DNA of 64,000 bases from a virus: IMG/VR virus record IMGVR_UViG_3300010403_000003, positions 1 through 64,000 of that record. The stretch is one strand, 5' to 3'. Position 1 is the first letter of the stretch. Every line of letters begins with the position of its first letter. The translations under genes and the position numbers were made by a program. Below the pieces are notes generated by a model. That model was not told the origin of the DNA. It worked only from the letters and a program-made list of their open reading frames with translations, and ran no database searches. Shown here piece by piece: positions 7,951 through 40,810 of this stretch.

Positions 7951-9232
7951 GTGTTTGCAATGGCAAGAGTGAACCGGTGTCCGGATCAAGGAACGATTCC
8001 CACGGCGGATTGTCGCCGAGTTTCGTCTTGATTGTATCGTACCGGCGACCACCCACGGCGAGGCGGCGGCGGCGCTCGTCGGCGGTGGCATACCAATCCC
8101 TATAAGAAACCGGATCGGGAGCGACTTCGCTTTGAGCGTTTCGAAAAACGGCGGTCAACGCCGGGTCGTTTTCGATGTAGTCGGCTGGAAAAAGCACCGG
8201 AGTTCGGTAACAGCGACACCCCCAAGCCATTATGCTTCCATCGCGAGGCGACTCCAATGGTGGGGCCGGACACTCATCCATACCCTTTTGGCCCGGTTTT
8301 GGGTCCAAGTAATAGATTTGGCCATTCCTGGCGGCGTGTGCGGGCCTAGTGTTTTCATCTAATACGCTGTGGATTTGCCATCCTTGAATCATGTCGCCTA
8401 AGCCGAGATGCGCCTCATGATTCGCTTCGTTGAACACTCTCAAGCTTTCGCTTCTCGCAATCCGCCGCGCAGTCGAACGCACCCCGTCAACCACCGGGAC
8501 CAAGTCCCGAGCAATCTGCGACGTCATCTTCCCTTGCGCCACGCCCTGCCCGACGATCTGCGCCAATTGCTGCGGCGTCGCCGAAGTCCGCGTGGCCCCC
8601 TCCAGCCGTTGCTCCCACGTCACCCCGGCCACGGGTGCGTAAACGATGCGGTTAACTTGCTCCTGCGACGGCGGCGGGAAGAGGAACCCGGCGAACGCCT
8701 CGCGCTTCTCTGCGGCGGACAATTCATCTTCGGTCGGTTCCGGTGCCGTGTATTCGGGCCGCACGCCGAAGCGAAAAGCCGGCTCGCCAGGCGATGTCAG
8801 TCCGAGCGCCCGCAAGACGATTTCGACGATGCCGGGTTTTTGCGGGCCGCTCGGCAAGACGCTGGGCCAGGTGTCGTCTTCGAGGAGCAGCGATTCTTGG
8901 GCCGGGGCGATACGCTGCAAGGCGGCGGCGCGGAGGTAATTCGTCGGGAGAATGCCGAGCGTTTCGAGGGCCGCACGATGACCGTGGCGCGTCATGCGGT
9001 CGAGCGAATGGGCGATGGATTGCTTAGCGACGGGAAGGATACCGGCGAGGGCCGTCTGGGCGTATTGCTGGGCACGGAAAGGAGATTGCTCCGAAATAGC
9101 GGCCATGAGGCGACGCCACTGGCTAATGATCTGGCGATCCACGGTGTTGGCGGCGCGGTCAGCCATCAGGACCGCGTCTATCTGGCGAGCCGTGGCGCGG
9201 GCGGCAATGCGGGAGGAAAGATGATTGCTCAA
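7841..9232 (-). CDS. Head morphogenesis protein, Mu gpF / SPP1 gp7 family
   Basis: 463 residues. The start is a TTG at 9232 overlapping the portal stop as TTGA. The family signature is at ~265-310: RIARSESLRVFNEANHEAH, GWQIHSVLDENTRPAH, then a GCRCYRTPV segment, as in minor head proteins that bind the portal and enter with DNA. Preceding region: SATPQQLAQIVGQGVAQG and TSQIARDL helices. It directly follows the portal gene, the usual order in such phages. Confidence 0.85.
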   Translation of the reverse strand: MSNHLSSRIAARATARQIDAVLMADRAANTVDRQIISQWRRLMAAISEQSPFRAQQYAQTALAGILPVAKQSIAHSLDRMTRHGHRAALETLGILPTNYLRAAALQRIAPAQESLLLEDDTWPSVLPSGPQKPGIVEIVLRALGLTSPGEPAFRFGVRPEYTAPEPTEDELSAAEKREAFAGFLFPPPSQEQVNRIVYAPVAGVTWEQRLEGATRTSATPQQLAQIVGQGVAQGKMTSQIARDLVPVVDGVRSTARRIARSESLRVFNEANHEAHLGLGDMIQGWQIHSVLDENTRPAHAARNGQIYYLDPKPGQKGMDECPAPPLESPRDGSIMAWGCRCYRTPVLFPADYIENDPALTAVFRNAQSEVAPDPVSYRDWYATADERRRRLAVGGRRYDTIKTKLGDNPPWESFLDPDTGSLLPLQTLSREHPETRTKRIGEVRGLIDQRAAALRRVLAFGSV

Positions 9233-12200
9233 ATGTTCGCCCTAAATCCTGATCCGACTCGATGAGCGATTGTCTGTAAAATCGTCTTTTTCAACTCAGC
9301 AAGAGTGCCTCTCGGAGTTACGCCCAAAACACGCTGCGCCGCGTCTTTCACTTGCCCATTTGGTAATACATCGAGGGCGGACCGCACTTTGTTTTGCAAC
9401 TCGGCCCAATCCGCCTGGAACCGCTCCGAGTCCTTTCCTTTCTCGTCGGCACTGATCTTGCGAGCCAAGACGCCGGCCTCCTCATGAAGTTTGGCCAACC
9501 CATCAGCCGAAGCGAATTCGCTGCCTCCATCCTTCTTGGGCGCTGTTTCGCTCGCCGGCTTCGCTCGCTCATGCTGTTCGCGGCGTGATTTGATTTTCTC
9601 GCCGATGCGATCAACCAGTTCGCTCTTAGTCCCGCGAACGTCATTGATCCCAAACTTGCCGGCAAGCAGTTTGATCTGCGGTACACTCATCTCGTTCGAG
9701 ATCGACGCCATCGCCGCATCAACCTTCTCGAAAAGCTTGTCATCGGTCAGTGCCGAATCAAAAAGCTTCTTGACGTGCTCGTGCGCGGCGTCCAGCGTGG
9801 CGGCGTCTTCGGCCTTCTCGTGGGGCTTCGCCTTGACGACGTTTTCGGGGGCTGGCGCGGCGTTGGGAGCGGCCGGAAGTGGCTTCGGCATGTCCTTCGC
9901 TGAAGCCAATCTTTCCAATTCTTCCTTAATCATTTTAGCGACATCGTATTTCTCACGAAATGTTTTTTCAGCAACATCCTCCCAATGCTCATCGCCGATC
10001 ATGCCATTCTGGTCAGCCGTAGCCTCGACCTGATTGTACACCTTGTCGGCGGCTTTTTTGGCGGAAGGGAAGGCGGTTGAATAATCAAAGGCTCCGTCCA
10101 GAAAATCAGTTATCACGGCTTCGATGGTCGTTTTGCCGCTACGAACGTCGTTTGCGACTTCGCGGAACCAGCTTTTATTTGGTTTGAATGGCTGATTTGC
10201 GCTTTCCTCCTTCGCCGGCTCCCCAAACTCCTTCCCCAAGTCGAAATCGCCGATATCGTGATGCGTCGCCAATCCCGCCAGCGCCACCTTCGCCGCCATC
10301 GCCTTCCGTTGCGCCGCCGGGTCCGCATCGTCCGCGTGCTTCGCGATCGCCTCTTCGAGTTTCGCCTTCGCGTCCTTGCCCCAAAGTTTCACGGCCTGCT
10401 CGGCGAGGTCTTTCGCCTTCGGGTGGCTCGCGTGGCTGACGTCGATTGCCGTCGGGCCGGCGACGTGATGGCCGTCTTGGTAGTGTTGCTTGTGTCCGAG
10501 GCGGTCGGTGAGGACGCCGGTGAAGCCGGATTCGAGGAGGAAGGCTTCGAAATCTTCACTCTCGACGACCGGCTCCGACTCATCCGCCATCACCGCCACC
10601 ATGAACTCCTTGCCGAGTCGCGCGATCTCTTCGGGCGTCAGCGTCGCCTCTTCGCTCTCCATGGCCGGCGTTCCTTTGCCCTTGAACCATCGCACCAGTT
10701 CCGCGACCGCGACAATGGGCGCAGGCCCGATGATCGTCCCCCCAGGCAAGGGAAATGCCGCAATCCCAGCGCCAATAATCGCCAACGCCGTCGGCCGGCC
10801 ATAGCGCGCCTCGAGGCGATCATAATGCCCTTTCACTTTCACCTTGGCCGCTTGCATCACCTTCGCGGGAATCTTGCTGGCATAGCTGGCCCAGGTTTCG
10901 ACGTGCTTGTCTGGAGATGCCGGTGCGTCTTTCGGAGCGGCTACTTGCTTGCCGTTTTGCCAGTGGTGGCCATGGGCGTCTATGCCGGTGAAATTTTCGA
11001 GGACGTCGCGCGATTCCCTTAACGGCCCCTTAAGCTTCAAAATCATATTGAAATTGTCGTCGCCTCTTTTAATGCCATGATCGAGCATGGCTTGCAAGCG
11101 AGCGTTCTCTGCTTCTCGCCCTTTTCTTCCTAGTCGTGGGCGCTCATTCACCTGTTGCATCTCGATTTCGCCGCGATCCCACATCCCCTGCAATTGCTTG
11201 TGAAATTCGGGGAGAGTCAGCGGTGCATCGCCCGCTTTTTGCCGGTCATGATTTACTTGCGCGAAAGCCCGATGGATATCGATTAAGCCGTCTTGGAATT
11301 GCGGCATCCTTTTAAGCAAGTCCAAAGACTGATGAATCTGCTCATCGGCCGGCTTTCCGCTTCCAGATTTCTGCGTGGCATTGGCGGCAGGCGCAGCCGC
11401 TTGAGCCGTGTCGCCTTTTTCAAGCTCCATCTCGATACGGCCAAGGACTGTCGTGTAATCCATGTATTTACGTTTAGCTTCCTCGATCTTAGCCTTCGCC
11501 TTGTCTCCGTATTTCTGTATCAGTTGATCCGCATAGCCGCGTATTTTGTCTGGCGACGTTGCGTCCTTTGCCGCATCGCGCTGAACACCCGGCTTGTTAA
11601 GGTCGTCTCGCGCGACCTGCTTACCGTCGGACCATTTGTGCCCGTGGGAATCAATTCCGGTGAAACCAGCCTCCATCAGTTCCAACGATTCGAGACTGGC
11701 GAGCATCCCAGCCAACGGATCGCCGCCGCTCGGCTGTGGCCCACCCGATGGCCCCCCTCCTCCACCACCAAACGGATCGCCCCCATCCCCCGGCATCGGC
11801 AGCGCCCCGCCCTGTTGCCCAAACTTCGCGTCAAACTCCTCGTTGTTCGCCGCCTCATGGTCCGGGTCCAATCCCCGCTCGCCCTGCGCCGTCTTGACGC
11901 TTTTAATCTTCGTACCGATGAGAATCTGATCTTCCTGCGCCGTTTGCAGCGGATCGCGAACGCTGATCGTGGGGGCCGTCACTTGCAACTCGACGACGTC
12001 GAGTGTGTTTTCGGCAAGCAGGCCGCACTTCATGCCCCACTTGATGGCGCGGAGGACGATGATCATGAAAGCGGTCTTGAAATGGCCTTGCGTGACTTCG
12101 GACGCGATAACGAAGGGCGCGCCAGCTTCTTTTGAGGAGCTGTAATTTGCGTTCGAGGCATCGCCCGTCATGTACTCGGGCGCAGCGAACACGGCTCCGC

Positions 12201-13431
12201 ATTGCCGCAGATCGCCCTGCAAAACCTCCAAGTGCTCGCTCGCTCCCACCGCTTGCGGCCACACCGGCTTTTGCCCCATCGGAATCCGCCGCGTCGATCC
12301 CGGCCGCGTGCGTTCCTGCGTCTCGGTTTTCCCGCTGACCGGGTTCGTGAATTGCCGCTCGGATAAGCGCGTGGCCAGCGATTGCACCTGGGCCTCGCTC
12401 GCCACCTCATGCTGCCAGATTTCAGCCGTCGCCGCGCGGACGCCGCTCGACGTGCTCACGTTCCGCATAAGCTTGGACGCCCGCTCCAATGAATCGACCA
12501 TGTCGAGCGAGAACGCCGGCAGGCCCCGCTTCGTCGCCGCGTCCTCTTCGAGATTCTTGAGATGCACAATCTCCGACGCCGGCACATATTCGCCCTCTTG
12601 CCCGTCGTTGCGGGTGCCCTTGTACTTGACGTAGTATTCCTTGATGTCCTCTTCGTCTTCGAAAGGTTCCGTCTGGTGGCGCATGCCGTAAGACCAGCCC
12701 GTGCCGTCCCCGGATTGCGGCGGGTCCGTCACCTGCTCCGGTTCCACGAACCGCACAAAAGTCATGCCCCGAAGTTCACTTTCCTCGTCCTCCACGAAGA
12801 AAAGCCGAAAGATCGTCTCGCCATCGCGCCACACGCGGCGGCCCGATTCCCACTCGCGCGATGAACTAACAATCGACGCATCGGGGTCCGGGTTGACGCT
12901 CGCAGTGAAGCGATTCGTCATCAGGAATTTGTCAACGAATGCCTGGGTTTGCTTGACGATTTGTGTGTCTTGCGGGTTCGCCTGGACGCCGGGCGACTCG
13001 GGGGCGGCGTCCCGGTTTTCTTTCGGTTGGATTTCGTACGTGAAGCCTTTGCCGATGTTGTGCGTTAATAGGTTGAAGAGAAGGCTTCGCGCATAGGAAT
13101 TCTTGCGGGATATGATGCGCGAGCGTTGGCGATACTGGCCCAACTCAAATTCGTTCCGCCAAATCGGATAATTGTCCCCGCGCTTGCGATCGCTGACGAC
13201 CGAAACGGGCAGCCAATATCCGGAACCCGCATTGCCGTAGCGCTCTTGGAAGAGGTCGAATAGCGCGTCCGAGCCGCCGAACCCGTCGTACATTTGCGCC
13301 CACATGACGGATTCGACGAGTCGCCGCGCCCGCTCTTGGCTCTCCAAAAGCGACTGTTCTTGCGGCGGTTTTTGCTCGCCGTTTGGGGGTTTTCCGTTGG
13401 CCGGCTCGGGAGTGGCGGTGTCGGTTGGCAT
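9229..13431 (-). CDS. Portal protein with very long repeat-bearing C-terminal extension
   Basis: 1400 residues from an ATG at 13431 (a TTG at 13467 is possible), about 2.5 times a normal portal. Residues ~30-550 carry the portal: RSRIISRKNSYARSLLFNLL, VRFVEPEQVTDPP, YVPASEIVHLKN and PEYMTGDASNANYSSSKEAG, as in lambda-type portals. The rest (~560-1400) is an extension with three copies of a small motif, FTGIDSHGHKWSDGKQV near 594, FTGIDAHGHHWQNGKQV near 819 and a variant, FTGVLTDRLGHKQHYQDG, near 979. It also has a Gly/Ala hydrophobic stretch near 890 (LAIIGAGIAAFPLPGG) and a SAP-like helix pair (MSVPQIKLLAGKFGI) near 1265. The extension is a single open frame without stops. Confidence 0.85.
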   Translation of the reverse strand: MPTDTATPEPANGKPPNGEQKPPQEQSLLESQERARRLVESVMWAQMYDGFGGSDALFDLFQERYGNAGSGYWLPVSVVSDRKRGDNYPIWRNEFELGQYRQRSRIISRKNSYARSLLFNLLTHNIGKGFTYEIQPKENRDAAPESPGVQANPQDTQIVKQTQAFVDKFLMTNRFTASVNPDPDASIVSSSREWESGRRVWRDGETIFRLFFVEDEESELRGMTFVRFVEPEQVTDPPQSGDGTGWSYGMRHQTEPFEDEEDIKEYYVKYKGTRNDGQEGEYVPASEIVHLKNLEEDAATKRGLPAFSLDMVDSLERASKLMRNVSTSSGVRAATAEIWQHEVASEAQVQSLATRLSERQFTNPVSGKTETQERTRPGSTRRIPMGQKPVWPQAVGASEHLEVLQGDLRQCGAVFAAPEYMTGDASNANYSSSKEAGAPFVIASEVTQGHFKTAFMIIVLRAIKWGMKCGLLAENTLDVVELQVTAPTISVRDPLQTAQEDQILIGTKIKSVKTAQGERGLDPDHEAANNEEFDAKFGQQGGALPMPGDGGDPFGGGGGGPSGGPQPSGGDPLAGMLASLESLELMEAGFTGIDSHGHKWSDGKQVARDDLNKPGVQRDAAKDATSPDKIRGYADQLIQKYGDKAKAKIEEAKRKYMDYTTVLGRIEMELEKGDTAQAAAPAANATQKSGSGKPADEQIHQSLDLLKRMPQFQDGLIDIHRAFAQVNHDRQKAGDAPLTLPEFHKQLQGMWDRGEIEMQQVNERPRLGRKGREAENARLQAMLDHGIKRGDDNFNMILKLKGPLRESRDVLENFTGIDAHGHHWQNGKQVAAPKDAPASPDKHVETWASYASKIPAKVMQAAKVKVKGHYDRLEARYGRPTALAIIGAGIAAFPLPGGTIIGPAPIVAVAELVRWFKGKGTPAMESEEATLTPEEIARLGKEFMVAVMADESEPVVESEDFEAFLLESGFTGVLTDRLGHKQHYQDGHHVAGPTAIDVSHASHPKAKDLAEQAVKLWGKDAKAKLEEAIAKHADDADPAAQRKAMAAKVALAGLATHHDIGDFDLGKEFGEPAKEESANQPFKPNKSWFREVANDVRSGKTTIEAVITDFLDGAFDYSTAFPSAKKAADKVYNQVEATADQNGMIGDEHWEDVAEKTFREKYDVAKMIKEELERLASAKDMPKPLPAAPNAAPAPENVVKAKPHEKAEDAATLDAAHEHVKKLFDSALTDDKLFEKVDAAMASISNEMSVPQIKLLAGKFGINDVRGTKSELVDRIGEKIKSRREQHERAKPASETAPKKDGGSEFASADGLAKLHEEAGVLARKISADEKGKDSERFQADWAELQNKVRSALDVLPNGQVKDAAQRVLGVTPRGTLAELKKTILQTIAHRVGSGFRANI

Positions 13432-13463
13432 ATTTGGAAGATATGCCAGAATGGGTTGTTCTC

Positions 13464-13694
13464 TCAATTTGCTGGACTACTCATCGCGGGAACCATAACT
13501 GGCCAATCATTCGGCTTGGCTTCGGCAATTCCCAACTTAACCATGAGATCGGCGTAAAACGTCGCGTAAATGTCCGCCTCGCATGGATGATCGATCCTGA
13601 TTCGACTCGCCGACGCCGACAAGTCGCCTTCCGTTTTGAAACGGGTAAAAATACCGGCTCGCCGATATGCTTGTGCTCGTTGGATAGCGAACAA
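13464..13694 (-). CDS. Small protein between TerL and portal (uncertain frame)
   Basis: The frame gives 76 residues from a TTG at 13694, ending CEADIYATFYADLMVKLGIAEAKPND. Another minus frame (13537-13746) starts with ATG and encodes MEKDVVFFNGIEFVRYPTS, which resembles the N-terminus of phage HNH-type proteins before becoming unconvincing. The region could be one small gene or a frameshifted HNH remnant whose two halves lie in different frames. Confidence 0.4.
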   Translation of the reverse strand: MFAIQRAQAYRRAGIFTRFKTEGDLSASASRIRIDHPCEADIYATFYADLMVKLGIAEAKPNDWPVMVPAMSSPAN

Positions 13695-13753: not shown

Positions 13754-15040
13754 TTACTGCGTCAACTCTTGGCTAGGTAGAAGTGATGCGAGGACGACGG
13801 CGTCGGCCTTATCGGGCGACCGATTGTTCGGCAGCCGCTTCTTGATATCGTCCTTCTTCTCAATGATAACGAGGCCCCCAGGCGATTTCCACGTCGGCGC
13901 ACAAAGCTCTTGCAAAAGCTCTCGGTCGGGCGGCAACGCCACTTCGAAGCCGTTCGCAGGGTCAAGCAATTCTCTAAAGGACCAATAAGCAAACGCTCTT
14001 ACGTTGCGAAAACTCAAGATGCCGGTGCGGTCCCGCGCCTTCGTCCGAACACCGAAGTCGATCCCAAAGGCATTCATGCCCGCCTGCCCGCAAGCCTCGG
14101 CGGCCGGCGCACCGTAACCGATGCAATCCACGAGCACCATCGCCCCCGGCCACACTCGCAACGCTTCCTTGATCTTGAGCGCCGCCATGGCCCCGCTCGG
14201 CGTCTGGCTCCCTTCGTAGCAAATTAACTCCCCGAACCAGTGCCGATGACGCGGGGCGAGAATAGTGCGATCGGCCCCACCGTGCGCGATGTCGCAGCCG
14301 AGCGCGTCCATCGGTTCGCCGCGGTGCCCGTCCGGCGTCCAGCGCTCTTGGGCAATGCGGACCCACGATTCGGGGATGACTTGGGAGCTGTCGTCCTCGG
14401 CAACGAACTCGCCACCGAGTTCCTGACGGGCGAAGTTGCCGGTGTAGACCTTGGCGAGATTCGAAGCGAAATCTTGATGGACGAACGGGTTATCGGATGT
14501 CTTGGCGTGGAAGATTTCTGTGTTGGGTTGCTGTGTGCCGAAGGCGTCGTATGTCCAGTGGGCTAACCCTTTTGGGGTCATTGTCGCTGTCAAGAATCCC
14601 AACTCGCCTTTCTCACGGAGCGAACCGAGTACGATCTCATAGGCTGCCTGGTCCATCAGCGAAGCTTCGTCGAGCCATGCGCCGGAGAGATTTGGTCCGC
14701 GAAGCGTCTCCGGGTTTTCCGTCGAGCGAAAGCGAATCACCTGCCCCTCGGTGAGCGTCACGTTAGGATGCGGCGTCATCCGTGCCGACCGCCATACGCC
14801 AATCTCTTGAGCAAGAGTGCGGAACGTCGGCAGCGTCGTATCTTCGAGAATGGTATAGGTAGGCGAACAGACGATATAGGTGCGGCCGGGGCGGGCGCGA
14901 ATAATCAAATCGTAAGCACCGACCCACGACTTGCCAGAACCGCGACCAGCGACGAAACCGCGCCGCAATGCCTTACTCTGCCGGAATCTCGCTTGCTCCC
15001 GGTAGAGTTTGATCCGCAGCGTCACCCTGTCCTGGCTCAA
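13754..15040 (-). CDS. terL: Terminase large subunit
   Basis: 428 residues. Walker A AGRGSGKS at 31-38, Walker B region SGAWLDEAS at 118-126 with the acidic pair D123/E124, and a C-terminal RNase H-like nuclease with GCDIAHGG near 250, MVLVDCIGYG near 308 and SPDKADAVVLAS near 415. It packages DNA into proheads through the portal. The start is a TTG at 15040, chosen because GAGG lies six bases upstream and no ATG follows nearby. It overlaps the TerS gene by 68 bases. Confidence 0.93.
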   Translation of the reverse strand: MSQDRVTLRIKLYREQARFRQSKALRRGFVAGRGSGKSWVGAYDLIIRARPGRTYIVCSPTYTILEDTTLPTFRTLAQEIGVWRSARMTPHPNVTLTEGQVIRFRSTENPETLRGPNLSGAWLDEASLMDQAAYEIVLGSLREKGELGFLTATMTPKGLAHWTYDAFGTQQPNTEIFHAKTSDNPFVHQDFASNLAKVYTGNFARQELGGEFVAEDDSSQVIPESWVRIAQERWTPDGHRGEPMDALGCDIAHGGADRTILAPRHRHWFGELICYEGSQTPSGAMAALKIKEALRVWPGAMVLVDCIGYGAPAAEACGQAGMNAFGIDFGVRTKARDRTGILSFRNVRAFAYWSFRELLDPANGFEVALPPDRELLQELCAPTWKSPGGLVIIEKKDDIKKRLPNNRSPDKADAVVLASLLPSQELTQ

Positions 15041-15414: not shown

Positions 15415-16297
15415 CTATTCGCTAGGCGATTCTTCAACATCACCCATTTCGACAGGCCCGCACGCCGCCGTCGCTTTCTTGGGGTCGCCCTTGACGAACA
15501 CAAGCACGTTTTGATGCGTCTTGCCAAGCTTCCGCCCGCTCTCGAATTGCCGCCCTACGCGAATCGGCAGGGAGCCAACGGACGTAATGAGGACAGCGTC
15601 ATTGTACAGTTTAGCCCCGGCATCTTGAAACGCCGCTATCGTGTCGCTGATGAAATTTCGGTACATGCCTTTCTTGTCGCGAACATCGCCGACGACGAAG
15701 CACGCGAAGCGGTCCTCGGCCAGCATGGCGACGCTCGCGGCGACGATTTCCCGGTAAGCGGCAAGGAACGCCGCGTAATCGAGCGTTGAAAGGTCCGCCG
15801 GGTCGTCGCTGTAAACCTCAAGATCGGCGTAGGGCGGGCATGAGAAAACGAGGTCGTATTGGCCGGGTGCGAGCGTCGCAACGTTGCGGCTGTCGCCCAC
15901 GATCCATCGCGGCGGGTTCTCGGGCGTGATCGTGGCCGCTTGCTGCTCGTTCGCGGCGATTTGCTCCGGGCGCAGATCGATCCCGGTGTATTTCCGCCCC
16001 AGCTTGGCGGCCACGATGCCGCGCACGGAGCCACCGGCGAATGGGTCGAGGACAGCGCCACCGGGCGGGCAGAACCATCGATAGGCTAACTCACAGAGAA
16101 CGGGGTCGAAGATTGATGTGCCTGATTGCTCAGCGCACATGCCCCCCCCCCCCGATATCTCCACTGGCGATTTTGTCGTTGACCCACTCTCGAGTGTTGA
16201 TGTTGAGGCTTCTTGGCACTTTGCCCCCCCCCTGTTTGAAGTTTGCGGCCAAATCACCAGGAGCTCCGCTGCCAAACGTCCGCGCGTTTTTTCCCAT
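15415..16297 (-). CDS. DNA methyltransferase, frame broken at a 12-base G tract (phase-variable-like)
   Basis: From the tract to 15415 the frame encodes a full methyltransferase core: TSIFDPVLCELAYRW, VLDPFAGGSVRGIVAAKLG (SAM site), YTGIDL, FSCPPYADLEVYSDDPADLS (SCPPY catalytic motif) and GKTHQNVLVFVKGDPKK. The natural N-terminus appears in another frame, from ATG at 16297 (MGKNARTFGSG, then VPRSLNINTREWVNDKIASG). It hits TGA at 16130-16132 after the G12 tract at 16142-16153. Removing one G, or adding two, joins both parts into one protein. As sequenced the gene is OFF from 16297; a TTG at 16275 opens the core frame but makes an odd N-terminus. The alternative is a homopolymer sequencing error. 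Confidence 0.8.
16142..16153. repeat. C12/G12 homopolymer tract in methyltransferase gene
   Basis: Twelve consecutive C on the plus strand (G in the coding strand). The tract sits exactly between the N-terminal and core parts of the methyltransferase. Length 11 or 14 would keep one frame. Such tracts are classic slipped-strand switches in surface and modification genes. Confidence 0.9.
16224..16232. repeat. C9/G9 homopolymer tract near methyltransferase start
   Basis: Nine consecutive C on the plus strand, inside the N-terminal part of the methyltransferase (codes KQGGGK in the 16297 frame). At nine bases both flanks read naturally in that frame. It gives a second possible slippage site 70 bp upstream of the G12 tract. 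Confidence 0.85.
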
Positions 16298-16340
16298 CTG
16301 GAGTTGCCCGCTTACGTCTAGGTGCTAAACTCTGGTCACC

Positions 16341-16547
16341 ATGAAACCGCACGAACGCCGCCAATGTGACGCCTATCCCTATTTTAAGCTGGCCGCCTGG
16401 GATGCCCGCTCATTTACGTTTCGCGATGGCAAGCAAGCCCACCCTAGCGAGTCCGCTGCCAAGCAAGAGGCCCGAAAGCCCGGCAAGTATCGCGTGAGCG
16501 TCGTCACCGCCGCAGGGCGAACTGATCTTGAGCCGTTCGCCATTTGA
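16341..16547 (+). CDS. Small plus-strand protein with TFRDGK-AHP motif
   Basis: 68 residues on the opposite strand to its neighbours: SFTFRDGKQAHPSESAAKQEAR, then GKYRVSVVTAAGRTDLEPF (read in two parts). It looks like a compact beta-hairpin domain and resembles small proteins I associate with planctomycete genomes, unchecked. It ends one base before the PLP-fold gene's stop, so it converges on that gene and diverges from the methyltransferase start. Confidence 0.6.
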   Translation: MKPHERRQCDAYPYFKLAAWDARSFTFRDGKQAHPSESAAKQEARKPGKYRVSVVTAAGRTDLEPFAI

Positions 16548-16548
16548 A

Positions 16549-17229
16549 TCACTTCGCGACATTCCAGAACAGTGCCCCCGGCGATGCGTACTGGCGAATA
16601 AACCGCCACGCTTTCGCGTCATAATTCGCGCACGACGGAAATGGCGGCGGATGCTTTGCTGGGTCGTCAAACTTTTCTGGTGCGTTCCAGATTGCCGCCC
16701 GCCCAACATTCGGCATCGCTCCGATTCGCACGGCATGAAAGCGGGCATTCGGCCACGCTTTTTGCAAGCTGAGCGAGAGCGTTCCGCTACCCGCGACAGT
16801 CCAAACCTCGGCCGGCTCTTCGATTTGCTGCGCGAGCTCCGCGATTGCCAAGCGGATCGCCGGCGTATCCAAGCCGAACGGCAGCAACTTCGCCCCGCTG
16901 ACGCTACAATAATCCGCCGCACGCTTGCGGACGACGCTCATATAGCCGGCTGGCCCCACTTCGATGATTTTCGCGCCGGCCGCGATAGCTTCAAGCGTTC
17001 GCGGGTGCTTTGCCTTGCGTGCGGCACAAAAGATCGTTGCACGCTTGCCATAATCGCGGGCGCAATAAGCGAGGGCGACTTGGGCATAGCCTTGAACCGG
17101 CGAGGCATACACATATTCGGAATGCGAATCAAAGAGAATTGGAACGACGCGGGCCTTCGTGCCGCCCTCTACAACGTCGTCGCGAACTACGCGGATGCCG
17201 GCGATGTCGTCAATCCTGACCGGCAGCAT
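16549..17229 (-). CDS. PLP-dependent fold type II-like protein
   Basis: 226 residues from an ATG at 17229, overlapping the ParB-like gene by 20 bases. VRDDVVEGGTKARVVPIL (Lys25) matches the 'RDD...GGNK-RK' block that carries the PLP lysine in ACC deaminase and D-cysteine desulfhydrase. EYVYASPVQGYAQVALAYC and WTVAGSGTLSLSLQKAWP follow the same fold order. It ends with PPPFPSCANYDAKAWRFI and SPGALFWNVA. It is shorter than the enzymes (~330), so it may be a reduced enzyme or a binding protein. Sitting between a ParB-like protein and a methyltransferase, it may act in DNA-base modification; that is inference. Confidence 0.65.
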   Translation of the reverse strand: MLPVRIDDIAGIRVVRDDVVEGGTKARVVPILFDSHSEYVYASPVQGYAQVALAYCARDYGKRATIFCAARKAKHPRTLEAIAAGAKIIEVGPAGYMSVVRKRAADYCSVSGAKLLPFGLDTPAIRLAIAELAQQIEEPAEVWTVAGSGTLSLSLQKAWPNARFHAVRIGAMPNVGRAAIWNAPEKFDDPAKHPPPFPSCANYDAKAWRFIRQYASPGALFWNVAK

Positions 17230-18061
17230 TCAGCGGCCTACCTTTCCCGTCCCCGCGAACCGTTCGGCCGTCTTTGCCGAGTTTCATTGCCGGCCTTGCG
17301 CTGCCCCCTGGGCATACGCGGCCTTGCGCTGCATCGGGTCGTTGTGCATCGCCATCTTTACCGTCTCTCTCTCTCTGAATATCCGCCAGCGTGCCCGATT
17401 GTTCCGCCTTGTCGCTTGATTGTGGCGGCATCGCTGTAATCGTGGACGCCCCCCCCCGTCCTATTTCGCTTTGAATGCCCAAAGACAGCCACGCCCGCTT
17501 GCGATCCTGCCAATAGCCTTGGCGGGCGTCGAGCACGCTGAAAGGCGGCACAAGAAAGCGGTCAGCCAAAGTCTTTGCGGCCTCAGATGGGTCCATGCCG
17601 CCCCCGCCCTCTTGGCTTGCAAGGATTCCACTGTCCGCTGCCAATCCCGCCAGCATCGCGTTCAAGGCTTCATTGTCCGTCTGGAAGCTATCGAGCAGCG
17701 CTTTAAGCTTTTCAGCATCGGCGGTAGCAAGGGCTGCGAGCGGATCGACGGAGGCCAACATCAACTTCGCCTCCTCATCGTTCAAATCGAGCACTTCGAC
17801 GGTGACCTCCATATCTGGCGTCATCTCCTGCCGCAAATGCCCATCGACAAGCTTCAGCCGCCCATCGGGCAGTTCGTAAGCCAACAGCGACCTGGCAAAG
17901 CCGATCTCGTCGTAAAGCCCTTGGAGTGCGGCTCGTTGCTCGTCGGGATGGCGTCTGAAATTTTGCTCGTGCGGGACAAGATCGCCTGCCCGGATCGTGA
18001 CGTGCCTCTTGATGCGGTTGCGAATTGCGGGTTCTGGTTTCGCGGCTTTCTTGCGTGCCAT
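17210..18061 (-). CDS. ParB-like protein with methyltransferase N-terminal segment
   Basis: 283 residues from an ATG at 18061. Residues ~20-110 are a ParB/sulfiredoxin-like domain (LVPHEQNFRRHPDEQRAAL, KLVDGHLRQEM). Residues ~165-200 contain LVPPFSVLDARQGYWQDRKR, a block normally found at the start of the methyltransferase half in fused ParB-methyltransferase phage proteins. After a G9 tract (17449-17457) the frame runs through low-complexity Asp/Arg/Gly sequence to TGA at 17210. The fused protein thus seems split here, with a PLP-fold gene between its parts. Frame fidelity after the G9 tract is uncertain. Confidence 0.75.
   Translation of the reverse strand: MARKKAAKPEPAIRNRIKRHVTIRAGDLVPHEQNFRRHPDEQRAALQGLYDEIGFARSLLAYELPDGRLKLVDGHLRQEMTPDMEVTVEVLDLNDEEAKLMLASVDPLAALATADAEKLKALLDSFQTDNEALNAMLAGLAADSGILASQEGGGGMDPSEAAKTLADRFLVPPFSVLDARQGYWQDRKRAWLSLGIQSEIGRGGASTITAMPPQSSDKAEQSGTLADIQRERDGKDGDAQRPDAAQGRVCPGGSARPAMKLGKDGRTVRGDGKGRPLNAAGQD
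17449..17457. repeat. C9/G9 homopolymer tract in ParB-like gene
   Basis: Nine C on the plus strand, coding RGG in the ParB-like frame just after the methyltransferase-like block. A one-base gain would instead read GVHDYSDAATIKRQGGTIGH-like sequence before a stop, which also looks protein-like, so the tract length may matter. Confidence 0.8.
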
Positions 18062-25528: not shown

Positions 25529-26386
25529 TCACGCTGGCAAGAGCGATCCGCGTTTCTCTGGGCACTCCCGCACGCGGAACTGTTCCGGCCATTCTTCCCA
25601 ATTGCCGCCATGGCTGTCGTCGCAATGCCACGGTTCACCGTTCCAAACAACACGCGAACCGAACTGCTTGACAAAACACGGCACGCCGAACAGCGCGCAC
25701 GATTGCAAAGCCTGCTCGACCCAAGCGATATCAAATTTCCGTGGCTCTCCCTTGCCTTGCTTCGACTCGCCGCCGACGATCACCCAATCGATCTCGCCCG
25801 TCGAAAGAAGCTGATCGAGGTCAACCGGGCCGATCTGCGGCTCAAGAGAAAGGAACAGGAAGCGGGCGAATGGGCGGCAATGGCGAATAAGACGTTGGCC
25901 CCAAATGTCCGCCGTGTCCTGGTCAGATATGGACGTTCCAATCCAAACGTTCCTGCGACGGAATTCCCGCCGCGTCAACTCGGTTTTGCCGAAGCCGCCT
26001 TGCTCCTGCGAATACCACATATCGGGGACGTTCTCGGGGCGCTTTGTGAGCATCAGGTAATCGAGAGACGGCGTCTTGTCGATTAATTGGAACAGTTCGC
26101 GCCGCCATTCTTGAAGTTCTGGTCGTTTCTCGAAGATGTCGGCCAGCGACGCGCAGAAGACTTTCGCGCGGTGGCCGCTCGCTTCCGCTTCACGTTGCCA
26201 GCGCGGCGGGTCGTTCCATGTCTTTGTTTTCGAGCGAGTGCCGCCCGGCCCCCATTTAACGCGATGATAGCGATGGTCCATCATCTCTTCGGCGTAGCAG
26301 AATTTGCAGCCGGTGTGGACTTTTTCGCAACCGACCCACGGATTAAACGTGTGGTCGGTCCATTGGATTTTTGAATTCTCAGCCAT
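25529..26386 (-). CDS. Gp37/Gp68-family (DUF5131) protein
   Basis: 285 residues from an ATG at 26386 inside an overlap with the upstream stop. The hallmark is near the start: IQWTDHTFNPWVGCEKVHTG and CKFCYAEEMM, a CxxxxxxCxxC cysteine motif reminiscent of radical-SAM proteins. Then DIFEKRPELQEWRRELFQLI, LDYLMLTKRPENV, RNVWIGTSISDQ, FLSLEPQIGPVDL, WVIVGGESKQGKGEPR and PCFVKQFGS. All are characteristic blocks of this phage family. The biochemical role is not established to my knowledge; iron-sulfur chemistry is plausible from the Cys spacing. Confidence 0.88.
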   Translation of the reverse strand: MAENSKIQWTDHTFNPWVGCEKVHTGCKFCYAEEMMDHRYHRVKWGPGGTRSKTKTWNDPPRWQREAEASGHRAKVFCASLADIFEKRPELQEWRRELFQLIDKTPSLDYLMLTKRPENVPDMWYSQEQGGFGKTELTRREFRRRNVWIGTSISDQDTADIWGQRLIRHCRPFARFLFLSLEPQIGPVDLDQLLSTGEIDWVIVGGESKQGKGEPRKFDIAWVEQALQSCALFGVPCFVKQFGSRVVWNGEPWHCDDSHGGNWEEWPEQFRVRECPEKRGSLLPA

Positions 26387-26754
26387 TAGATATCCTCGCT
26401 TAATTTTGGCCACCAAACCGCCGCCTTGAACCCCGTCACGCCGCAAACCCTCACCCCATCCCGATACGCCAATCCGGCCCGCTCAAGTTCGGGAAGCCGT
26501 TTCCTGACGTCGCCACGGGGCGTCCCCGCGATCTTGTCCAATTCGTTCGACGTTCGCCCCGGATTCGCCCGGAGGATGCCCAGCGCCCATTCCTGAGCCT
26601 CGCCGAGCCTTGTTGCCATGTGCGCCGCGGCTTCGTGACTCGTCGCCGGGTCGGAGGCGCGTGCGATGGGCTTTGGCCGGAAATCCGGCAAATCTCCAAA
26701 AAGCGGGTAATTGGCGGATGCCGTCACGTTGCCACCGCCTTTTGGCGACGCCAT
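26386..26754 (-). CDS. Winged-helix-like small protein
   Basis: 122 residues from an ATG at 26754. ARASDPATSHEAAAHMATR is a common N-terminal block of phage winged-helix proteins. It is followed by WALGILRANPGRTSNELDKI and VRKRLPELERAGLAYRDGV, a MarR/winged-helix pattern. It overlaps the HNH gene upstream by 31 bases. A DNA-binding regulator is likely. Confidence 0.68.
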   Translation of the reverse strand: MASPKGGGNVTASANYPLFGDLPDFRPKPIARASDPATSHEAAAHMATRLGEAQEWALGILRANPGRTSNELDKIAGTPRGDVRKRLPELERAGLAYRDGVRVCGVTGFKAAVWWPKLSEDI

Positions 26755-40738: not shown

Positions 40739-40810
40739 TTACGGGGGCAGGATTCGCACCTGCGACCTCCAGGTTATGAGCCTGGCGAGCTGCTGCTGCT
40801 CTACCCCGTA
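40739..40810 (-). tRNA. tRNA-Met (anticodon CAT)
   Basis: Complete 72-nt cloverleaf on the minus strand: acceptor TACGGGG/CCCCGTA, D stem GAGC/GCTC, anticodon stem CCAGG/CCTGG with loop CTCATAA, T stem GCAGG/CCTGC with loop TGCGAAT, discriminator A. It could be Met or, if modified at the wobble C, Ile(CAU). CCA is not encoded. The loop TGCGAAT is a small departure from TTCGAAT. Confidence 0.9.

Follow-up and report, generated by a model that had tools for sequence, protein, structure and literature searches.

A PLP-fold protein tied to CPPY-type methyltransferases in phages: a candidate partner in DNA base modification

Why should a gene for a pyridoxal 5′-phosphate (PLP)-dependent enzyme lie between a ParB-like gene and a DNA methyltransferase gene of a virus? 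The locus that raises this question is found in a 64,000-nucleotide stretch of DNA, referred to here as the window, which comprises bases 1–64000 of the 74,016-base virus record IMGVR_UViG_3300010403_000003. Three genes follow one another there on the minus strand, encoding a ParB-like protein, a 226-residue protein of PLP fold type II and a CPPY-type methyltransferase (MTase); an earlier note had read this row from the DNA letters alone, and the open reading frames (ORFs) and family matches confirm it. On balance, comparisons of sequence lead us to favour the view that the three genes constitute a phage DNA base-modification module, in which the PLP enzyme would be an optional second-step partner.

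The PLP-fold protein (16549–17229, minus strand) is modelled with a pLDDT (predicted local distance difference test) of 96.7 and a pTM (predicted template modelling score) of 0.91. Its best match among solved structures is D-cysteine desulfhydrase (4d9f; Z 22.3, root-mean-square deviation 2.3, 223 residues), followed by a homologue of 1-aminocyclopropane-1-carboxylate (ACC) deaminase (1j0a; Z 22.1). It shares fold type II with these enzymes and can be aligned with them over 223–226 residues at a Z of 22, but is ∼100 residues shorter and only 12–16% identical. The model thus shows a compact fold-type-II protein resembling D-cysteine desulfhydrase and ACC deaminase. Lys25, the residue of the N-terminal ..K.R motif expected to form the Schiff base with PLP, is unchanged in 60 of 60 relatives, in an alignment that takes in cellular sequences and those of the phage M6 type; Arg16, Asp18, Gly149, Lys206 and Trp222 are also invariant, and Ser148, Tyr203, Asp204 and Asn223 nearly so. 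The profile position of Lys25 aligns with the lysine of a cysteine synthase KDR motif, which we take to be the catalytic PLP lysine of that enzyme. The earlier proposal of a fold-type-II-like protein is upheld by the modelled structure, and this match and the conserved lysine and glycine loop lead us to expect a PLP site.

At the level of families, the protein matches phrog_7093 (1.4e-36, residues 11–225), while PF00291 (PALP) scores 23.4 bits, under its cut-off of 35, which is reached by the relatives L001 and L016 and by M6 gp52. A sequence-only search of the PDB with the single window protein as query gave no match. A more distant PLP type lies next to the same MTases in L125 (5040–5801), L166 (722–1471, minus strand) and L144, that of L125 fitting phrog_3650 (7e-21) better than phrog_7093.

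The genome-neighbourhood survey that had been set beforehand as a test shows the pairing of PLP and MTase genes to be widespread, and not unique to this contig. A profile search with the PLP protein alone gave 71 IMG/VR loci, near which MTases were scored by phmmer with four MTase seeds. An MTase lies within 3 kb of the PLP gene in 56 of the 71, and within 100 bases or fused to it in 20; in all 14 MTase-less loci the sequence stops, to one side of the PLP gene, less than 2 kb away. Of the loci with 3 kb or more of sequence on each side, 30/30 have an MTase within 3 kb, and of those with 5 kb on each side, 22/22 have one within 5 kb. When the PLP proteins are clustered at 85% identity, with duplicate copies of the same contigs excluded from the member lists, 19 of 21 clusters have an MTase, and both exceptions (L011, L066) are on cut contigs. 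The 16 loci with 7.5 kb on both sides contain 16 MTase ORFs within 3 kb as against 7 at 3–8 kb. As a control, 27 loci were found with the M6 PLP enzyme, and none of the 26 with scorable ORFs has an MTase. On bacterial genome contigs an MTase is directly adjacent in 11 of 23 scored PLP loci (24 found), those without one including a cellular branch and cut contigs. The PLP and MTase distances are also correlated (r 0.51, 0 of 999 shuffles), as measured on 35 non-redundant loci of the 47 in which the PLP and MTase genes are apart. Together these results show a tight link between the PLP protein and CPPY/SPPY MTases across many unrelated phages. Chance or an assembly artefact as the cause of the split is rejected because the same trio recurs across numerous contigs and finished phage genomes.

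Other candidates for a link with the PLP gene fared less well. Families of other possible partners, sought near the gene in 33 loci, occur in 3–11 loci and are mostly antisense or lineage-specific ORFs. A PAPS (3′-phosphoadenosine-5′-phosphosulfate) reductase was rejected as a general partner, being present only in the Erythrobacter-type L013, L014 and L016 among the PLP loci viewed; there, a PAPS-reductase-like gene lies 1–2 kb upstream of the nested gene described below. An anti-phage defence system was also rejected, since the PADLOC matches are only of methyltransferase type (Type II, orphan MTases, mads_2), with none for the window PLP or ParB protein. The cellular PLP branch (L097, L098, L099, L100, L102, L103, L108), which has no MTase nearby, comes from Bacteriovoracaceae, other proteobacterial metagenome-assembled genomes and an actinomycete. 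A LysR-like regulator ORF, recognised by eye, lies less than 2.5 kb away in three of the four cellular loci viewed (L097, L098 and L100, not L108).

The association is closest in the Erythrobacter phages R6L and ZS04 and in L016, where a single ORF of ∼810–817 residues encodes, in order, ParB, the bridging block, the half of the MTase that carries motif I, a whole PLP domain and the CPPY half of the MTase. The R6L paper treats this ORF (ORF1) as a single CcrM-like domain. In the model of the L016 protein (pLDDT 83.8, pTM 0.67) both folds are retained, residues up to 75 forming MTase strands and a helix, residues 92–312 the PLP fold, and the MTase continuing from a strand at 329–332 onward. PLP enzymes fill the best 50 matches listed in a Foldseek search with this nested model. 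In L009, on a contig cut at its 5′ end, the PLP domain precedes the same CPPY half with an identical junction; this protein is about half identical to that of L016 and represents a second lineage with the PLP domain inserted at the same site. These fusions show that a PLP domain can be built into an MTase polypeptide.

The idea of a ParB–MTase protein split around a PLP gene covers just one among several gene orders, the Erythrobacter phages having the PLP domain inside the MTase. The order ParB, PLP, MTase is shared by the window, L111, L113, L128 and L173; ParB, MTase, PLP is seen in Microcystis phage Mae-JY30 and L127; a fused ParB–MTase followed by PLP in L017, L026 and L175; and convergent PLP and MTase genes in L070, L071 and L157. 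A second MTase group, with an FTSPPY motif, lies directly upstream of the PLP gene in L030 and L037, directly downstream in the L044–L067 group, and otherwise up to about 2.5 kb away; no ParB was found at the PLP loci with this MTase type.

A further line of evidence comes from the thymidine-hypermodifying phages related to M6. The PLP relative in L008 matches the PLP enzymes of the Pseudomonas phages M6, YuA, PAE1 and LKO4, of SN1 and of Bordetella phages with 26–29% identity (E 1e-10 to 2e-4 among the matches listed), proteins that carry the label 'threonine dehydratase' or PLP enzyme; M6 itself is matched with ∼28% identity (E 5e-8, tblastn). M6 gp52 belongs to phrog_7093 (2e-159), the family also matched by the window protein, and comparison of the two types by hidden Markov model gives 51.9 bits. 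By sequence, then, the window protein is a remote homologue of the M6 PLP enzyme over nearly its whole length. The M6-type proteins form a clade of their own (100/100 support, branch 3.5 long), outside which the window protein falls, and their loci mostly carry other M6 cassette genes. The M6 enzyme is reported to decarboxylate a DNA-linked amino acid.

A role in base modification, one of two suggested in the earlier note, is supported by the fusion of the PLP domain into the MTase fold and by the homology to the enzyme of M6-like cassettes; the other suggestion, nucleotide sensing, has found no support of its own. We think it quite likely that the PLP enzyme and the MTase act in the same modification pathway. 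The ParB part would target DNA, and the MTase would attach a group derived from S-adenosylmethionine (SAM) to the amine of a base. An optional second step would fall to the PLP enzyme, whose substrate would be either this product or the donor, by analogy with its relative in the M6 hypermodification pathway. A PLP decarboxylase needs an α-amino acid and the aminocarboxypropyl arm of SAM has one, hence the hypothesis that the MTase-fold enzyme might transfer the 3-amino-3-carboxypropyl group of SAM, or use decarboxylated SAM, and that the PLP enzyme might remove the carboxylate to give a 3-aminopropyl base resisting restriction. Analogy makes aminocarboxypropyl transfer with decarboxylation the leading candidate for the chemistry, though a tentative one. 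Somewhat more doubtful is the full proposal that phages aminopropylate their DNA, with the PLP domain, sometimes nested in the MTase-fold enzyme, removing the carboxylate; if true, an enzyme with two cofactors would modify DNA with the portion of SAM that goes unused in methyl transfer. If simple methylation is not what these MTases do, the annotation of a large class of phage MTases is wrong. Phages already isolated with such genes are Erythrobacter phages R6L and ZS04 and Microcystis phage Mae-JY30.

Several observations weigh against a modification module. The M6-type and MTase-type PLP proteins are 20–29% identical and separated by a very long branch, and transfer of the reaction from M6 is weak for this reason; moreover, fold-type-II enzymes mostly carry out eliminations and replacements. 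The seven M6 cassette genes for handling 5-hydroxymethyl-dU that were looked for (gp49, gp51, gp53–56 and gp58) have no homologues in the window or in bases 63001–74016 of the record (E 0.01), and an M6-like thymidine pathway is rejected for the window phage on this basis. Viewed from the MTase side, there are 318 confirmed MTase homologues; among the 80 best, taken with ±4 kb each, a PLP gene is present in 37 and absent from the available sequence in 43. In an MTase tree of 92 rows, 49 have a PLP gene, 22 are cut and 21 lack the gene despite at least 2.5 kb on both sides. PLP presence changes at least 16 times on this tree (mean of 30.2 in shuffles, none of 500 reaching so low a number), so that the PLP gene appears to be an optional partner, often gained and lost. 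Nor do the catalytic columns of the MTase alter with PLP presence: motifs I and IV (DPF.GG, CPPY) are kept in both sets, and of 233 columns compared between 39 PLP and 13 non-PLP non-redundant MTases one exceeds z 4, at a non-motif residue. No residues marking a PLP partner were thus found, and the MTase itself gives no pointer to an unusual donor; its unchanged core is compatible with optional tailoring, and no less so with plain methylation alongside a PLP protein of unrelated role.

One alternative is that the substrate of the PLP enzyme is never DNA but some free small molecule of the host, such as one from the cysteine, serine or SAM pools; a metabolite could then be supplied or cleared for the MTase, for example by decarboxylation of SAM or removal of a by-product. 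The closest solved folds are those of small-molecule enzymes, the cellular branch has no MTase nearby, and a paper on microcin C (PMC10491745) describes a decarboxylated-SAM route of the same type. A diffusible product would, however, require neither insertion into the MTase fold nor close linkage over many lineages, both of which suggest a joint machine, and we regard this explanation as rather unlikely. Still less probable is a purely structural or regulatory role, in which the PLP-fold protein would be a subunit without catalytic activity and the MTase would only methylate. CysK serves some partners in just this way, the model places the PLP domain after helix B and ahead of strand 3 of the MTase fold, at a distance from the loops that bind SAM, and the MTase is the same with or without the PLP protein; yet the PLP lysine and Gly149 are invariant, and Ser148, Tyr203 and Asp204 nearly so, across an alignment of 60 proteins with cellular and M6-type members among them, and such conservation leads us to expect catalysis rather than scaffolding.

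It could also be argued that the PLP and MTase genes, as accessory cargo close to the packaging genes, travel together with no joint function, since in the window, ZS04 and Mae-JY30 the cassette adjoins the terminase gene or lies a few small genes away, and PLP presence on the MTase tree is patchy. Such hitch-hiking is hard to reconcile with the nested single-ORF fusion, with the correlated distances, or with the phages in which the ParB–MTase is missing but the PLP gene still lies no more than about 2.6 kb from an SPPY MTase of another type, and we consider it very improbable. A base-modification module thus remains our preferred reading.

Within the window cassette, the ParB-like ORF (17210–18061, minus strand) comprises the ParB-like domain, the bridging block VPPFSVLDARQGYWQDRKRAWLSLGI and a variable tail. 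It begins with an ATG at 18061, in a frame open from 18097, and stops at 17210, past the VPPFSVLDARQGYWQ block, overlapping the start of the PLP gene by 20 bases. The ParB part matches the N-terminal region of phrog_498 (1.8e-16) and phrog_15396 'ParB-like' (1.6e-15), whereas a Pfam search (E 1) returned no family; by eye, the tail is similar to the ParB tails of L124 and L114. The MTase core (15415–16140, minus strand; ORF 16275/16140–15415) begins SIFDPVL, has motif I DPFAGGS and motif IV SCPPY, and matches PF01555 (47.2 bits, cut-off 26.7), phrog_12517 (3e-108) and phrog_498 (8e-83); the motifs and the PF01555 match fit an N6/N4 amino-MTase. The core was correctly recognised in the earlier note as one gene, but an N-terminal segment (16130–16297, minus strand; MGKNARTFG) lies in a different frame, joined at a run of 12 G. 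This segment resembles the N-terminus of the Mae-JY30 MTase (MAKGKARTFG) and, by eye, L126 as far as the G run; the corresponding stretch of L126 continues in one frame.

The 12-G run (16142–16153), at the meeting point of the two MTase frames, is one of three minus-strand runs, the others being 9 G within the N-terminal MTase segment (16224–16232) and 9 G just past the ParB bridging block (17449–17457). These are the only G/C runs of at least 8 in the window; shuffled 64-kb sequences have a mean of 1.5 such runs, and 0.37 of at least 9. In the loci with a cassette hit among 80 MTase loci and L016, L017 and L026, the cassettes contain 35 runs of at least 8 (0.216 per kb) and the DNA outside them contains 7 (0.017 per kb), a 13-fold difference in density. 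At the ParB/MTase joints of the window, L177, L178, L147 and L121 the coding strand carries poly-G runs of 8–12, and the near relatives L177 and L178 differ in two run lengths (10, 10 against 9, 9). In 19 of 51 pairs of ParB and MTase blocks, all 19 split, a G run separates the two blocks, while 12 pairs are fused and 20 split with no G run; the pairs are not de-duplicated, may count both the window and its copy L012, and in 3 cases are more than 1.2 kb apart. The runs look like slippage-prone joints, which perhaps give phase variation of MTase expression or of the ParB–MTase fusion; Gly-rich linkers or assembly errors may be alternative sources.

The ORF at 16341–16547 on the plus strand (68 residues), tail to tail with the PLP gene, is probably a real gene, as the earlier note had supposed: relatives with 63% (L125, 6584–6787, minus strand) and 59% identity (L111, 2379–2576, minus strand) also adjoin similar cassettes, in the opposite orientation. 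A search of 50,697 phage records gave zero matches. Beyond the MTase core lie one small gene and then the terminase large-subunit gene (13754–15040). Elsewhere in the window, a DUF5131 protein (25529–26446, minus strand; PF07505, 1.8e-51), 7.5 kb from the cassette, carries the motif CEKVHTGCKFC, a C..C..C cluster as in radical-SAM proteins. The portal protein (9229–13467, minus strand; PF05136) has 1412 residues in all, with a very long C-terminal extension in which a GFTGIDSHGH.W.DGK-like motif is seen by eye in ∼3 repeats, and a tRNA-Met lies at 40739–40810 (minus strand).

Comparison with known systems sets this cassette apart in several respects. Phage ParB–MTase fusions (phrog_498, phrog_12517) have the same ParB-like part, bridging block and CPPY MTase core; the PLP gene or nested PLP domain is additional, and in the window the ParB and MTase parts are separate, with G runs at the joints. 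The CmoX/CmoA/CmoY carboxymethylcytosine system (PMC12783734) combines a phage MTase, non-methyl SAM chemistry and amino-acid tailoring, often with ParB nearby. CmoX has an SPPC motif (C5-cytosine) and is accompanied by an amide ligase (PMC12783734), whereas the window pairs SCPPY with a PLP enzyme. The CmoX-type SPPC motif is absent from the window MTase. MccE of microcin C differs in fold type from fold-type-II enzymes. The MccD/MccE pair couples aminocarboxypropyl transfer with a PLP decarboxylase to give an aminopropyl group, formed either by transfer and then decarboxylation or via decarboxylated SAM (PMC10491745). Its substrate there is a peptide-nucleotide (PMC10491745), whereas the window system is proposed to act on DNA bases.

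A further parallel is M6. The SN1 announcement (PMC9476957), citing Lee et al. (2021/2022), places the PLP enzyme within a thymidine-modification cassette that includes a radical-SAM protein, a kinase and aGPT-PPlases. The phage-borne enzymes of M6 (gp52), YuA and SN1 share with the window protein the lysine, the SSG loop and the PFP....YD.KAW...FWN pattern, but their loci lack a SAM MTase (26 of 26), which is the partner of the PLP protein in the window. We searched for papers on a PLP enzyme paired with phage MTases and found none, subscription papers being outside our reach and novelty thus unproven. To our knowledge, 5-hydroxymethyl-uridine pathways are so far the only DNA-hypermodification systems with a PLP enzyme. 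The present loci link a relative of that enzyme to ordinary-looking DNA methyltransferases in many unrelated phage contigs, and in some it even lies inside the methyltransferase, a pairing that suggests a not yet described way of chemically modifying viral DNA.

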